From Gemmatimonadota bacterium (GTDB taxonomy: Bacteria; Gemmatimonadota; Gemmatimonadetes; Longimicrobiales; Gaopeijiaceae): a stretch of 39,546 bases of DNA. Numbering within the stretch: position 1 is the first letter of the stretch; the number at the start of each line of letters is the position of its first letter. The position numbers and the translations under genes were made by a program. The DNA is taken from NCBI GenBank assembly GCA_022823225.1, contig JAJDXM010000093.1, positions 1-39,546 of the forward strand, read 5' to 3'. Positions 8,135 to 39,409 of the stretch are shown here, one piece after another. The notes under the pieces were generated by a model, which worked only from the letters and a program-made list of their open reading frames with translations, did not search any database and was not told the origin of the DNA.

Positions 8135-10498
8135 TCAGGCGGAATCGGAGGGCATGAAGTACCCGACCCCGCGCTCGTTGCGGATGTAGGCCGGGTTGGC
8201 CGCGTCGTCCTCCAGCTTGCGGCGGAGTCGCTTGACGACGGCCCGCACGAGCTTGGGATCCGGCGGACGCTGGTCTCCTCTGCGCCACGCCTGGCGCAGC
8301 AGCGACTCGTGCGTCAGCACGCGCCCCGCGTTGACCGACAGCACCCGCAGCAACTCGTACTCGGTGGGCGTCAGCTGCACCGGGCGGCCGGAAACGGCGA
8401 CGCGCCGCCGGTCGTAGCGGATGGTCAGTGCCCCCAGGGCAAAAGGCTCGGGCCCGGCTACACGTCGCAGGGCTGCCCGCACCCTCGCTGTCAATTCCGA
8501 TGGCGAGAACGGCTTGACGATGTAGTCGGCCGCGCCTGCGTCCAGCGCCCGGACGATTGTTTCGTCCCGGCCGTAGGCGGAGATGAAGATGACGGGAATG
8601 TCGCTCAGCTCCGGAACCTGCTCCAACAGCGCGATGCCATCCGTCCCGGGGAGAAGCAGGTCCAGCAGGACCAGCCCGGGCCTGTGCATCTTGACGAGGC
8701 TGACCACCTCGTCGGCGTCCCCGGTCGCTACGGTCGCGTAGCCCGCGTCGGTGAGCGCGTCGCGGAGATACCGGAGCATCTGAGGGTCGTCGTCGACCGC
8801 CAGGATGCGCGTCTTCTCCCGCCGTTTCCGGGCCTCGGACGTGTGCGGCAATGCGAGTCCCTCGGAGACGGTGCCCGGCTCATCGGCCACGGGCACCGTG
8901 AAGGTGAAGCGCGTGCCCTGGCCGAGGCCGTCGCTCTCGGCCCGGATGCGGCCCCCGTGCGCCTCGACCAGGCCCTTGCAGATGGTCAGGCCGAGTCCGG
9001 CTCCCGCCCCGCTTCGCTCCCGGTCGCCGCCGACCGGCGCCGCGTATTTGCGAAACAGGTGAGGAAGCCGATCGGGTGGCACGCCGCGGCCTCTGTCGGC
9101 CACGGAGATCGCCACATGCACCCCGTCCCGGCACGCCTCGATCCGGATGGGCGATGACTCGGGAGAGTACCGCGCCGCGTTGGACAGGAGGTTGCCCAGG
9201 ACCTGGACGATGCGCGTCCGGTCGGCCATCACCCGCGGCAGTTCATCGGGCAGGTCGATGTCGAGGTCGTGTCTGCCCGCGCCGCTCACGAACGTGCTCC
9301 GGGCCTGGTCCACCAGAGAGGCGACCTCGACCGGCTCCGGCGACACCGACAGTGTGCCGGTCACGATCCGCCCATGGTCGAGCAGCTCGCCGATCAGGCC
9401 GCGCATGCGGTCGGCTTGGTTGTCGATCACCCGGAAGAACTGCAGCATTTCGGCCGGATCCGGCGCTGGCGAGGCGCCCAGGACGGTTGCCGTTGAGCCC
9501 TTGATCGAGATCAGCGGCGTGCGCAACTCGTGGCTGACTATGCCAAGGAACTCGGCGCGCATGCGCTCCATCTCCTGCAGCGGCTCCAGGTCCTGCAGCG
9601 TGACCACGGCCGACAGGACGGTCCCGTCGTCAGCCTGGATCGGCGTCGAGTTGACCAGCGTGGTCACGCTTCGCCCATCCTCGACGGAGAGCGTGATCTC
9701 CTCGGCGCGCACTGCCTCGGCCGTCCCCAACAACTGTGCCATCGGAAACTCGGCCAGGGCGACCTCTCGCCCGTCCGCACGGCGACAGCTGATCGCCTCC
9801 AACAACTGCTCCGGAGCGTACCCGGGTGTGTTCAGCACGTCGACGATCCGGCGCGCTTCGCGGTTGAATGACACGAGCTCGCCGGTTGGCCCGTCGAATA
9901 CCACCACCCCTACCGGCGAAATCTCGATAAGCGTCTCCAGATCGGCTCGGGCCCTGCGCTCTTCTCGGTGCGCGCGAGCGTTGGCAATCGCGGTCGCCGC
10001 CTGGGCGGCGAACAGCGTCATGACCTCCTCGTCGGCCTTCGTGAATTCCCGGCCACCCTCCTTCCCGCCAAGAAAGAAGTTGCCGACGTTGATGTCGCGA
10101 TGTTGCAGCGGCGCTCCCTGCATCGTGTTCGAGGGCATCACATCATCGTTGAAGCCCAGCTCCCGGACATAGGCGCGCAGGTCTCCCACGCGGATCGGCG
10201 CGGCAAGACTCCTGAGGTGTTCGAGGAGCTGCGGACCGTACGGCCAGTCGACCATCTCCTCGTGCTCGGCCGGAGTGAAGCCGGACATTACGAACTGGTC
10301 GGCCTTTCCGGAGGCGTCGACGGTGACGATCACGCCAAGCTGTGCCCCGGTCAGGACGCGCGCGCTGTCCACGACCTCCTGCAGCACGGTGTCGAGGTCA
10401 AGACTGCTGCTGGCGCGCAGGACGGCGGCGCTCAGCCGGGACACGCGTTCCCGAAGCACCTCGATCTCTCTTCTCAACTCGCCGGAATCGTTCGACAC
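8135..10498 (-). CDS. Soluble hybrid histidine kinase / response regulator with OmpR-type DNA-binding domain
   Basis: A 787-residue signalling protein uniting sensor, kinase, receiver and DNA-binding output. Approximate order: coiled coil 5-30; GAF 30-175; PAS 185-310 (LIEISPVGVVVFDGPTGELVSFNREA); HisKA with the phospho-accepting His in SHELRTPLISIKG near 320; HATPase_c with an N-box (NLLSNAARYSP) and glycine boxes (DRGRGVPPDRL, GAGLGLTICKGLVEAHGG); a receiver near 565-680 with the DDD triad, phospho-Asp in VLLDLLLPGTD and Lys in IVKPFSP; an OmpR/PhoB winged helix at the end (LTPTEYELLRVLSVNAGRVLTHESLL, then VKRLRRKLE). No transmembrane helix is seen, so it should sense cytosolic cues. I chose the GTG start because GAAGGGGGA precedes it; an ATG at 10540 is an alternative. 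It is divergent from the LuxR gene. Confidence 0.9.
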   Translation of the reverse strand: MSNDSGELRREIEVLRERVSRLSAAVLRASSSLDLDTVLQEVVDSARVLTGAQLGVIVTVDASGKADQFVMSGFTPAEHEEMVDWPYGPQLLEHLRSLAAPIRVGDLRAYVRELGFNDDVMPSNTMQGAPLQHRDINVGNFFLGGKEGGREFTKADEEVMTLFAAQAATAIANARAHREERRARADLETLIEISPVGVVVFDGPTGELVSFNREARRIVDVLNTPGYAPEQLLEAISCRRADGREVALAEFPMAQLLGTAEAVRAEEITLSVEDGRSVTTLVNSTPIQADDGTVLSAVVTLQDLEPLQEMERMRAEFLGIVSHELRTPLISIKGSTATVLGASPAPDPAEMLQFFRVIDNQADRMRGLIGELLDHGRIVTGTLSVSPEPVEVASLVDQARSTFVSGAGRHDLDIDLPDELPRVMADRTRIVQVLGNLLSNAARYSPESSPIRIEACRDGVHVAISVADRGRGVPPDRLPHLFRKYAAPVGGDRERSGAGAGLGLTICKGLVEAHGGRIRAESDGLGQGTRFTFTVPVADEPGTVSEGLALPHTSEARKRREKTRILAVDDDPQMLRYLRDALTDAGYATVATGDADEVVSLVKMHRPGLVLLDLLLPGTDGIALLEQVPELSDIPVIFISAYGRDETIVRALDAGAADYIVKPFSPSELTARVRAALRRVAGPEPFALGALTIRYDRRRVAVSGRPVQLTPTEYELLRVLSVNAGRVLTHESLLRQAWRRGDQRPPDPKLVRAVVKRLRRKLEDDAANPAYIRNERGVGYFMPSDSA

Positions 10499-10583
10499 CG
10501 GTTCCCCCTTCGTAATCTGGCGAAACCGCGTGAGGAGCATTCGCCCCGCCAAACGGCTGCCCGTGTGTCACCCACTTATCACG

Positions 10584-34413: not shown

Positions 34414-36168
34414 ATGGCTCCCCCCGCCGCAAACGCACCCTCCACCGTCCGCTACCAGCCCGACGAGAAGCCGCCATGGCCGCTCGCGACCGGGCTCGCG
34501 CTCCAGTACACCATCCTCGCGCTGGGAGGCGTGGTCCTGACCGTCGCGATCGTGCTCCGGAGCGCGGAGAGCAGCGCGGAATACCTGGCATGGGGAGCCT
34601 TCGGCGCGCTCCTGGTGTGCGGCATCGCGACGATCGTGCAGGTGCGGCGCTTCGGGCGCCTCGGATCCGGATACGTTCTGATCATGGGCACGTCGGGGGC
34701 CTTCATCGCGGTGTCGGTAGCCGCGCTGCAGCAGGGCGGCCCGGCGCTGCTGGCGTCGCTCGTGATCGCGTCGTCGCTGTTCCAGTTCCTCCTGGCCGGC
34801 CGGCTCTCCCTTCTGCGGCGCGTCCTCACGCCGACGGTGGCGGGCACCGTGATCATGCTGATCGCGGTCAACGTCATGCCGTTCCTCTTCGATTTCATGG
34901 ACAACGTCCCGGAGGGGGCCGCGCCCGCCGCCGGTCCCGTTACCGTGCTCGCGACCCTCGGCGTCACCCTTGCGGTGATGCTCCGGTTCACGGGGCCGGT
35001 GCGGCTCTGGGGACCGCTGATCGGGATCGTGGCCGGGTGCGTCGCGGCTTCGTTCTTCGGCCTCATCGACACGGGGCCCGTGGGTGCGGCGGCGTGGGTC
35101 GGGGTGCCCGCGGCGGGGGCGCCGGGGTTCGGCTTCGATTTCGGCCCCGCCTTCTGGGCGATCCTCCCGGCGTACACCTTCGTGACGCTGGTGGGCGCGA
35201 TCGAGACGATCGGCGACGCCGTGGCGATCCAGCGCGTCTCGTGGCGAGCCCCGCGGGCCACCGACTACCGCGCGGTACAGGGGTCCGTGGCCGCCGACGG
35301 CCTGGGCAACCTGCTCTCGGGGCTCTTCGCCACGGTGCCGAACACCACCTACTCGAGCAGCGTCTCGATCGTGGAGATCACGGGGATCGCGGCGCGGCGC
35401 GTCGGGCTGTGCATCGGAGCGATCTTCTGCGTTCTGGCGTTCCTGCCCAAGGTCACGCAGCTGCTCCTCATCATCCCCGATCCCGTGATCGGCGCCTACG
35501 CGCTGGTGATCATCGCCGTGCTCTTCGTGCTCGGGACCCGGATCGTGCTGCAGGACGGGATGGACTACCGCAAAGCGACGATCGTCGGCGTCTCCTTCTG
35601 GGTCGGGGCCGGTTTCCAGAGCGGCGAGATCTCGACCGCGGGCCTCGACCCCTTCCTGCAGCAGCTGCTCGCGAACGGGATGACCTCCGGTGGCCTCACC
35701 GCGCTGATCCTCACCGGCTTCATGGAGCTGACCGGCCCCCGGCGCGTGCGGATGCAGACGGCGCTGGAGGTCGAGTCGCTGCCGGACATCCAGCAGTTCC
35801 TGGAGAAGTTCGCGGCTCGCAGGGGGCTTGGCAGCGAGGTGGCCGGCCGGCTGGCCCACGCGGCGGAGGAGACGCTGGTGCTGCTGATTGAGGAGGCGGA
35901 GGGCGGCCAGGTCCCGGAGAAGAAGCGGTTGCGACTGACCGCACGTGCCGACGCGGGCGCCGCGGAAGTCGAGTTTCTGGCCGCGGGCGGAGAAGGCAAT
36001 ATCGAGGACCACCTGGCCGTGATCGGGGGCCATGTGGCCGAAGAGCCGGGGGAACACGAGTTCTCGCTGCGGCTCCTGCGGCACCTGGCCACTTCGGTTC
36101 AACACCACAAGTATGCGGACACCGACGTCGTGACCGTGCGGGTCGATCCCTCCGGACCGGGGACGTAG
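34414..36168 (+). CDS. NCS2-family nucleobase permease with C-terminal degenerate RsbW-like domain (copy 1)
   Basis: 584 residues. Residues 25-445 are the NCS2 (SLC23) transporter with many hydrophobic helices. ETIGD at 264-268 is the conserved substrate-site Glu region, and TVPNTTYSSSVSIVEITG at 308-324 occupies the NCS2 signature helix, though the usual Asn and Gly are replaced by Ser. Residues 450-577 are not part of an ordinary permease. They look like an anti-sigma/RsbW-type GHKL ATPase fold: LAHAAEETLVLL in the N-box helix (Asn missing), then AGGEGN where D-x-G-x-G is expected, and FSLRLLRHLATSVQHHKYADTDVVTVRV at the end. ATP binding may be lost. The paralogue follows after 44 nt. Likely inner membrane, transporting purine or pyrimidine. 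Confidence 0.88.
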   Translation: MAPPAANAPSTVRYQPDEKPPWPLATGLALQYTILALGGVVLTVAIVLRSAESSAEYLAWGAFGALLVCGIATIVQVRRFGRLGSGYVLIMGTSGAFIAVSVAALQQGGPALLASLVIASSLFQFLLAGRLSLLRRVLTPTVAGTVIMLIAVNVMPFLFDFMDNVPEGAAPAAGPVTVLATLGVTLAVMLRFTGPVRLWGPLIGIVAGCVAASFFGLIDTGPVGAAAWVGVPAAGAPGFGFDFGPAFWAILPAYTFVTLVGAIETIGDAVAIQRVSWRAPRATDYRAVQGSVAADGLGNLLSGLFATVPNTTYSSSVSIVEITGIAARRVGLCIGAIFCVLAFLPKVTQLLLIIPDPVIGAYALVIIAVLFVLGTRIVLQDGMDYRKATIVGVSFWVGAGFQSGEISTAGLDPFLQQLLANGMTSGGLTALILTGFMELTGPRRVRMQTALEVESLPDIQQFLEKFAARRGLGSEVAGRLAHAAEETLVLLIEEAEGGQVPEKKRLRLTARADAGAAEVEFLAAGGEGNIEDHLAVIGGHVAEEPGEHEFSLRLLRHLATSVQHHKYADTDVVTVRVDPSGPGT

Positions 36169-36212
36169 CGCCGCGCCCGACTACTCACGCAAAACCGGGA
36201 GCCCAGCCAGCC

Positions 36213-37958
36213 ATGCCCAACCCCTCCGGCACCACCCAGGACCTCCGCTTCCAGGCCGACGAGGCGCCGAGCTACCCGGTCTCGTTCGGGCTCGCCTTCC
36301 AGTACATCCTGCTCAATATCGCGGGCATCGTCATCACGGTTGCGATCGTGGTGCGGGCCGGCGGAGGCAGCGAACTCTACCTGACATGGGCCGCCTTCGC
36401 CGCGCTGATCGTCTGCGGGATCACGACGCTGATTCAGGCGAAGCCGATCGGCGGCCGCATCGGCGCGGGGTACATCCTGCTGATGGGCACGTCGGGGGTC
36501 TTCATCGCGGTGTCGGTGGCGGCGCTGCAGCGGGGCGGCCCCGCGCTGCTGGCGACCCTGATCGTGGCCTCGTCGCTCTTCCAGTTCCTGATCTCGTCGC
36601 GTCTGTCGCTGCTCCGCCGCTTCATCACGCCGACGGTGGCGGGCACGGTGATCATGCTGATCGCGGTCACGGTGATGCCGATCGGCTTCGATCTGTCGTT
36701 TCTGGCGCCGGAGGGGGCCCCGCGCGGCGCCGCGCCGCTGACCGCGCTCGCGACGATGGCGGTCACGGTGGTGATCGTGCTGCGCGCCAGGGGGGCGCTG
36801 CGGCTGTGGGGGGCGGTGATCGGGGCGGTGGTGGGGTGCCTGACCGCTGCCGGGTTCGGCATCTACAACATGGAGATTGTGGGCGAGGCACTCTGGTTCG
36901 GGGTGCCGGCGGCGGGGTGGCCGGGCTTCGACTTCGGCCTCGGCCCCGAGTTCTGGGCGATGCTGCCGGCCTTCATCTTCGTCACGCTGGTGGGCGCCAT
37001 CGAGACGATCGGCGACGGCATGGCCATCCAGCGCGTGTCGTGGCGGAAGCGCCGCGCCACCGACTTTCGCGCGGTACAGGGGGCGGTGGCGGCGGACGGC
37101 GTCGGCAACCTCCTGTCGGGCATCTTCGCGACGGTCCCCAACACGACCTACTCGAACAGCGTCTCGATCGTCGACATCACCGGGATCGCGGCGCGGCGCG
37201 TGGGCGTGTGCATCGGCCTGATCTTCATCGCGCTCGCCTTCTTCCCCAAGGCCGCGGCGGTGCTGCTCGCGATCCCCGACCCGGTCGTCGGCGCCTACAT
37301 CGTCGTGCTGATCGCGATCCTCTTCGTGCTGGGCCTGGAAATGGTCGCCCAGGACGGGATCGACTACCGCAAGGCCACGATCATCGGGGTCTCCTTCTGG
37401 ATCGGCGCCGGGTTCCAGAGCGGCCAGATCCCGGCGGAATACTTCGGCTGGGCCGGCCCGCTGCTGGAGAACGGCATGACGTCGGGCGGGCTGACCGCGA
37501 TCCTGCTCTCGACCTTCATGGAGCTGTCGGGTCCCCGGCGGCGGCGGATCGAGACCGAACTCGACGTCGAGGCGCAGCCGAAGATCCAGGCGTTCATCGA
37601 CGCGTTCGCCGGCCGGGCGAAGCTGTCCGAGGAGACGGCCCACCGGGTGAGCCTCGCGGCCGAGGAGACCCTGCTGGTGCTGCTGGAACAGATCGCTGAG
37701 GACGACGCCCTCGGCCAGCGCCGGCTGCGCGTGACCGCGCGTGCGGAAGCCGGTGGCGCCGAACTCGAATTCCTGGCCGCGGCCGGTGAGGGCAACATCG
37801 AGGACCGCATGGCCTTCGTCGGCACGCACGCGGCCGAGGTGCCCGTGGAGCAGGACTTCTCCCTGCGGCTGCTGCGGCACGTCGCCACGAGCGTGAGGCA
37901 CCAGAAGTACCACGACACGGACATCGTGTCGGTCAAGGTGGAGGGGGAGGCGGGGTAG
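36213..37958 (+). CDS. NCS2-family nucleobase permease with C-terminal degenerate RsbW-like domain (copy 2)
   Basis: 581 residues, closely related to the gene before it over the whole length, pointing to tandem duplication. The transporter part has ETIGD and TVPNTTYSNSVSIVDITG at the substrate site and signature helix. The C-terminal domain (about 450-578) again has the N-box-like helix SLAAEETLLVLLEQ without Asn, AGEGNIED, and a final FSLRLLRHVATSVRHQKYHDTDIVSVKV. These last motifs are among the best conserved parts between the copies, so the extra domain is under selection. It probably shares a transcript with copy 1. Confidence 0.88.
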   Translation: MPNPSGTTQDLRFQADEAPSYPVSFGLAFQYILLNIAGIVITVAIVVRAGGGSELYLTWAAFAALIVCGITTLIQAKPIGGRIGAGYILLMGTSGVFIAVSVAALQRGGPALLATLIVASSLFQFLISSRLSLLRRFITPTVAGTVIMLIAVTVMPIGFDLSFLAPEGAPRGAAPLTALATMAVTVVIVLRARGALRLWGAVIGAVVGCLTAAGFGIYNMEIVGEALWFGVPAAGWPGFDFGLGPEFWAMLPAFIFVTLVGAIETIGDGMAIQRVSWRKRRATDFRAVQGAVAADGVGNLLSGIFATVPNTTYSNSVSIVDITGIAARRVGVCIGLIFIALAFFPKAAAVLLAIPDPVVGAYIVVLIAILFVLGLEMVAQDGIDYRKATIIGVSFWIGAGFQSGQIPAEYFGWAGPLLENGMTSGGLTAILLSTFMELSGPRRRRIETELDVEAQPKIQAFIDAFAGRAKLSEETAHRVSLAAEETLLVLLEQIAEDDALGQRRLRVTARAEAGGAELEFLAAAGEGNIEDRMAFVGTHAAEVPVEQDFSLRLLRHVATSVRHQKYHDTDIVSVKVEGEAG

Positions 37959-38467: not shown

Positions 38468-39409
38468 TTGTTTGGACGCAAAGAGGGACCGCGACGGCCA
38501 TTGTTGATGGCCACCACCGTGCTGTCGGCGACGGTATGGGCGTTCGCCTGTGGCGACGGAACGGTAGAACCGAGTCCCGACGATCCACCCCCGCCAGCCG
38601 CAGTCACGGTGGTCCCGGCGACCGCAACGCTGGCCGCGCGCGGGGCCACGCTGCAGCTCACGGTCCAGATGCGGGACCGCAACGGGAAGGTGATCGAGGG
38701 CCCGGCAGTCTCCTGGGCAACCAGTGATGCGTCGGTCGCGACGGTGACTCGGTCGGGATTGGTGACGGCGGTGGCAGACGACGCGGCGACGGTCGGCATC
38801 ACGGCCACCGCAGGCGACGTCTCAGCGACGGCGCAGCTCTCCGTGGCGGATCCGCAATACGCGGTGCTCATCCAGTTCTTCTGGGCAACCGGCGGAGGTG
38901 ATTGGACAAACTCCGAGGGGTGGGGCAGCCCCGACCTGTCCACGTGGCATGGGGTGACGGTGGACCACCAGGGTCGGATCACGAGGCTGGATCTCTTCAA
39001 CAACAACCTCGTGGGGCCGATCCTGCCGGATCTCGGGGATCTTGCCCACCTGCAGTCCCTGAACCTCGGAAGGAACCGGCTCAGCGGTGGCATACCGCCC
39101 GAGCTCGGCAACCTCGCGGCACTGGCGAACCTCTACCTCGGCACCAACGAGCTGAGCGGGAGGATTCCACCCGAGCTCGGCAACCTGGGGTCACTGCAGT
39201 TCCTGAACCTCAGCGGCAACGACCTGAGCGGTGGAATCCCGCCCCAGCTCGGAGACCTCGGGGCGCTGAGGGAATTGAGCCTCGCCGGCAACGACCTGAG
39301 CGGCCCGATCCCACCGGAACTCGGCAACCTCGAGAGCCTTGAGCACCTGTCCTTCCTCGGCATCGGCGTGACCGGCCGGATTCCGCCGGAACTACGGACG
39401 ATTTCGTAA
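38468..39409 (+). CDS. BIG2-domain plus leucine-rich-repeat lipoprotein
   Basis: 313 residues. The start is TTG with GAGAGG upstream; an in-frame ATG at 38507 would remove the basic N-terminus, so I prefer the TTG. The signal region ends in AFAC with a likely lipid-carrying Cys near 28. Residues 45-127 are one BIG2-like Ig domain (VTVVPATATLAARGATLQLTV, then VSWATSDASVATVTRSGLVTAVADDAATVGITAT). Residues 132-313 follow the plant-type LRR layout: an FFWATGGGDWTNSEGWG cap and WHGVT, then about six repeats of IPPELGNLxxLxxLxLxxNxLSG. The final repeat stops abruptly at IPPELRTIS, without a C-terminal cap, so it is short for this type. Probably a surface adhesin or ligand-binding protein. An imperfect palindrome begins 3 bases after the stop. 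Confidence 0.85.
   Translation: MFGRKEGPRRPLLMATTVLSATVWAFACGDGTVEPSPDDPPPPAAVTVVPATATLAARGATLQLTVQMRDRNGKVIEGPAVSWATSDASVATVTRSGLVTAVADDAATVGITATAGDVSATAQLSVADPQYAVLIQFFWATGGGDWTNSEGWGSPDLSTWHGVTVDHQGRITRLDLFNNNLVGPILPDLGDLAHLQSLNLGRNRLSGGIPPELGNLAALANLYLGTNELSGRIPPELGNLGSLQFLNLSGNDLSGGIPPQLGDLGALRELSLAGNDLSGPIPPELGNLESLEHLSFLGIGVTGRIPPELRTIS

Follow-up and report, generated by a model that had tools for sequence, protein, structure and literature searches.

NCS2-fold membrane proteins with a C-terminal RsbW-like domain that lacks the ATP-site motifs, in Gemmatimonadota and other bacteria

Two adjacent genes in a 39,546 bp contig of a Gemmatimonadota bacterium (GenBank accession number JAJDXM010000093.1; the whole stretch is referred to here as the window) encode proteins in which a transporter-like membrane part is followed by a C-terminal tail of about 130 residues. 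The question they raise is what such a tail does on such a protein. The first gene, copy 1 (positions 34414–36168, + strand; 584 aa), was defined from its open reading frame, matches to Pfam and NCBIfam profiles and a full-length structural model, and the second, copy 2 (36213–37958, +; 581 aa), from its open reading frame, profile matches and evidence of purifying selection. The two reading frames are separated by 44 bp and the proteins share 63 % identity. In both, the match to the NCS2 family covers residues 20 to 440 approximately and the tail residues 447 to 577 approximately; the RsbW-like tail of copy 1 was delimited as residues 445–584 (35746–36165, +), and that of copy 2 (37548–37955, +) was placed using an alignment of 61 tails and residue counts. 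A full-text literature search found no description of an NCS2–RsbW-like fusion.

The membrane part and the fold of the tail

Both copies match the NCS2 profile PF00860 (E values 9e-47 and 2e-45; 160 and 155 bits, where the cut-off is 27), and TIGR03173 also matches both, at scores well under its own cut-off. The full-length model of copy 1 (pLDDT 83.8) has UapA (5i6c; E 1e-16) and UraA (8omz) as its best Foldseek matches, and the fold search groups the membrane part with UapA, UraA and SVCT1, with SLC26 next. The Gln/Asn of TM10, the His of TM1 and the Glu of TM8, which we take to be the substrate-binding residues in UapA/XanQ, were located via sequence alignments and scored in 37 full-length fusion proteins. 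The TM10 Gln/Asn was kept in none of the 37 and the TM1 His in one, while the TM8 Glu was kept in 18, both window copies among them. Though the NCS2 profile and UraA-type fold agree with an earlier labelling of these proteins as NCS2 nucleobase permeases, the nucleobase part of that label is unsupported, and 'nucleobase permease' appears doubtful for the fusions because these residues are largely lost. The ligand of the membrane part is probably something other than a classical nucleobase and transport of another compound is possible, as losing the classical substrate residues is not proof of lost transport. Marine Gemmatimonadota are reported to be richer in xanP (xanthine permease) genes (PMC11596202), and the genes counted in that study may include those for NCS2-tail proteins.

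In a profile search with the full protein, HATPase_c_2 (PF13581) matched residues 451–574 of copy 1 with an E value of 1.1e-4; the tail alone scored 27.3 bits, the Pfam cut-off being 27.4. The match to the tail of copy 2 was weaker (E 0.24). Matches at E ≤0.1 were obtained for 30 of the 61 tails (best 6e-7), and one copy from a relative exceeds the cut-off at 36.4 bits. The structure of the tail was predicted by AlphaFold from the 61-sequence alignment (pLDDT 79.5, pTM 0.74; the region matching the ATP lid is poorly modelled), and the top Foldseek matches of this model were UsfX, RsbW and SpoIIAB (E 5.8e-7 to 7e-4). Using VIA-align, the model aligned with RsbW (6m37_C) with a Z score of 16.1 and an rmsd of 2.2 Å over 111 residues, with other anti-sigma kinases at Z 13.5–15.1, with SiaB and LvrC at 11.6 and 11.2, and with histidine-kinase domains at no more than 8.7. 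Searching PDB sequences with the profile of the tail produced no match, and in a profile–profile comparison with a neighbouring canonical RsbW the N-terminal part alone was aligned (81 % probability). As the Z scores for the anti-sigma kinases exceed those for the next classes, we consider assignment of the modelled tail to the RsbW/SpoIIAB/UsfX-type fold to be sound. Hence, profile searches, structure prediction and fold search all bear out the RsbW-like GHKL fold proposed in the preliminary description, and neither of the findings it had named as speaking against this, another known fold or the absence of the tail from homologues, was encountered.

Lost ATP-site motifs and new invariant residues

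Residue losses were read from the 61 tails aligned to four canonical RsbW proteins. The N-box Asn and the Asp of the DxGxG motif, both of which had been thought lost in the window copies, are each absent in 61/61 tails, with Ala replacing the Asp in 51, and in place of the G2-box glycines of RsbW the tails have SLRLL. Because the ATP-site motifs are lost, the tail, judged by its sequence, can hardly act as an RsbW-type kinase, yet it is constrained. Residues E485, E486, F521, N529, L552, L554, L555, H564 and D571 are invariant in all 61 tails. Column counts place the strongest motif at residues 551–578 of copy 1 (36064–36147, +), SLRLLRHLATSVQHHKYADTDVVTVRVD, which includes the invariant L552, L554, L555, H564 and D571. 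Among the 37 full-length proteins, which come from many phyla, mean pairwise identity is 80 % for residues 551–577 versus 57 % for the membrane part, making this the best-kept part and confirming the strong conservation earlier ascribed to the C-terminal motif; for the whole tail it is 52 %, not above the value for the membrane part. Rough pairwise estimates by the Nei–Gojobori method gave dN/dS of 0.08–0.28 for the tail in fusions and 0.09–0.20 for a free version of the tail (see below), in which the dN of the tail was lower than that of the membrane anchor in 3/3 pairs. The tail evolves under purifying selection.

A divergent branch of fusions found in the Vicinamibacteria (L183, L184 and L185) lacks the SLRLL motif and retains H-E-Q-F-[YH]-D, and may be an older form of the tail.

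The loss of the ATP motifs, together with the broken copies that occur in some genomes, might suggest that the tail is a decaying remnant without function, but this is already contradicted by the residues that are invariant across approximately ten phyla and by the low dN/dS, and we give it almost no credence. A further explanation is that a different ligand or metal site may have taken the place of the lost ATP site, in which H557, H564, H568, D571 and N529 would bind a regulator of the transporter. H564, D571 and N529 are present in 61/61 tails, H557 in 59/61 and His at position 568 in 56/61, and even the divergent L183–L185 retain the motif as H-E-Q-F-[YH]-D. However, copy 1 in the window has Ala at position 568, no ligand was seen and the model is poor where the ATP lid would be, and we regard a rebuilt site as distinctly improbable.

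Copies, distribution and habitat

The genome that includes the window has six fusions, two in the window and one each on contigs C46, C70, C52 and C23. It also encodes a 170 aa protein made up of one TM helix, as read from the sequence, and the tail (contig C87), and one NCS2 protein without the tail (contig C71) that is AzgA-like by its sequence. All 23 genomes of this genus carry 4–12 matches, and the free TM-anchored tail is kept in most of them. In two genus genomes (L050, 6001–7098, +; L051, 7182–8312, −), the free tail is immediately followed by a second tail reading frame, which in L050 departs near its C-terminal motif. That free tails are widespread was ruled out, as the short frames inspected outside this genus were broken or frameshifted NCS2-tail genes. 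In L052 and L053, from another genus of the family (genome G030), most of the membrane part is gone and the tail frame is open; these two genes may either be decaying or be on the way to becoming free tails.

Scanning 84,980 species genomes gave at least 591 pattern matches, of which at least 584 were confirmed. Among the matches listed, 79 loci span approximately ten phyla and those inspected encode NCS2-tail proteins, but these 79 are also the most similar ones and hence a biased sample. The fusion is present in 42 of the 298 Gemmatimonadota genomes sampled (8/119 genera), in 12/49 genomes of the Nitrospira family and in 26/193 of the class Vicinamibacteria, a distribution that is widespread but patchy. 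Phyla are intermixed in the tree, with a Rhodothermales copy from a chromosome-level assembly lying among those from Gemmatimonadota and an Actinomycetes copy among those from Alphaproteobacteria. This points to horizontal transfer of the fusion between phyla, though bins can hold stray contigs. No copies were found in plasmids or in viral contigs, leaving a phage or plasmid origin unsupported. A gammaproteobacterial chromosome carries four consecutive NCS2-tail genes (L085 and genome G333, contig C1, approximately 1097900–1104600).

In the Palauibacteraceae, the fusion was found in 14/17 genomes of one genus, several species names of which point to sponges or corals, and in 0/18 genomes of six other genera. 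The genus with the fusion was judged to be Palauibacter because the match sits at the same position in the genome of Ca. P. rhopaloidicola. The hosts of accessions MPMI, MPNJ and MPMZ, which carry the fusion, were checked directly, and these are symbiont bins from the sponge Aplysina aerophoba (PMC5649159). Wherever hosts were checkable, the carriers come from sponges or corals; a sponge origin of other isolates is suggested by their name codes and a list of sponge species (PMC8163846). In the order to which Palauibacter belongs, metagenome-assembled genomes fall into separate branches according to whether they come from sponges, marine sediments or saline soils (PMC10469786). One divergent fused copy is in a genome, G415, for which habitat is not given. 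Thus, the carriers are likely, though not certain, to be sponge symbionts for the most part. Being present in so many copies in bacteria from many phyla that seem to be host-associated, the fusion is a candidate trait of sponge life. The window also encodes, at 38468–39409 (+), a protein that, judged by eye, has an Ig-like (BIG2-type) stretch ahead of leucine-rich repeats of the plant type (LxGxIPxELGNL). Such eukaryote-like repeat proteins are often reported in symbionts.

Gene neighbourhood and a candidate role for the tail

After the fusion, four Nitrospira loci carry genes for an intact RsbW on the opposite strand, for a STAS protein and for a receiver–SpoIIE phosphatase, and Nitrospinota-type loci carry receiver, receiver–SpoIIE and RsbW genes, an RsbU/RsbW/RsbV module in complete or partial form. 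An RsbU/RsbW/RsbV-type set was found in no other locus examined, though in L058 a STAS gene alone lies near the fusion, and a search for conserved operons revealed no purine-catabolism gene or other neighbour common across phyla. The fusions in the genome studied here do not adjoin partner-switch genes; a similar module is on contig C3, unlinked to them. Hence, the adjacency in Nitrospira may be coincidence, and it suggests, but does not prove, a functional link between the fusion and the adjacent module. This genome also has intact genes for RsbW, STAS (contigs C3 and C58) and phosphatase proteins, which could be partners of the tail. A long open frame in the window (8138–10567, −), with receiver-like residues 584–704 and a HATPase-type match at 8942–9220, is probably a hybrid histidine kinase.

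We tentatively favour a reading in which the fusion is a transport-coupled membrane pseudokinase of the partner-switch type, independent of ATP and with a STAS protein, a sigma factor or another tail as its putative partner. The NCS2-fold membrane part would be combined with a cytosolic RsbW-like pseudokinase as regulatory domain, the cytosolic side being suggested by the topology of UraA and by arginines that come after the TM helix in the free tail. With ATP binding and phosphorylation apparently lost, the tail would work through protein binding alone. It may pair with another tail, either as a homodimer of the RsbW type or with the free version. Alternatively or in addition, it may capture, at the membrane and without need of ATP, a partner that is a STAS protein (RsbV-type) or a sigma factor. 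A switch of the membrane part between substrate-bound and substrate-free states would change the contact made by the tail, and the protein would thus serve as a sensor coupled to transport or as a transporter controlled by its partner.

The reading that we place second, possible but less probable, is that the tail, like the STAS domain of SLC26, is a dimerisation and stability domain only. It would hold the NCS2 dimer in place and modulate transport, and would have no partner in signalling. The membrane parts of NCS2 and SLC26 have the same fold and the full-length model matches both, nearly all copies of the tail are fused to NCS2, and most loci are without a conserved gene neighbour. However, most genomes of the genus retain the free single-TM tail, which is under purifying selection. 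Unless the free tail forms heterodimers, this implies that the tail does more than serve a single transporter chain. A broader version of the partner-switch reading, which we consider unlikely, is that the fusions represent a new class of membrane signalling protein, a transporter-fold receptor with a partner-switch pseudokinase half, that has spread horizontally among sponge symbionts of multiple phyla and reads a ligand in sponge tissue.

SLC26 transporters bear STAS domains and, to our knowledge, it is not settled why they should be linked to anti-sigma switches in this way. The fusions resemble NCS2/NAT proteins (UraA, UapA, XanQ and PbuX; PF00860) in membrane fold and family profile, but differ in having lost the TM10 Gln/Asn (37/37), the TM1 His (36/37) and the TM8 Glu (19/37), and in the addition of the RsbW-like tail and an N-terminal R-Y-x-P-D-E-x-P-P motif. 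The tail shares its fold and strand–helix order with RsbW, SpoIIAB and UsfX (PF13581) and keeps the acidic pair of the N-box as E-E, but is without the N-box Asn, the DxGxG Asp and the G2-box glycines, is tethered to the membrane and has an invariant motif of its own. SLC26/SulP proteins with a C-terminal STAS domain likewise combine a related membrane fold with a C-terminal cytosolic domain of partner-switch type (PMC6497670), but the fusions carry the RsbW side of the partner-switch pair, not the STAS side. The earlier idea that they hold the other half of the SulP–STAS pair fits the fold and, in two phyla, the gene neighbourhood and, if true, a related transporter family with an ATP-free RsbW side would be a second, independent meeting of transport and partner switching.
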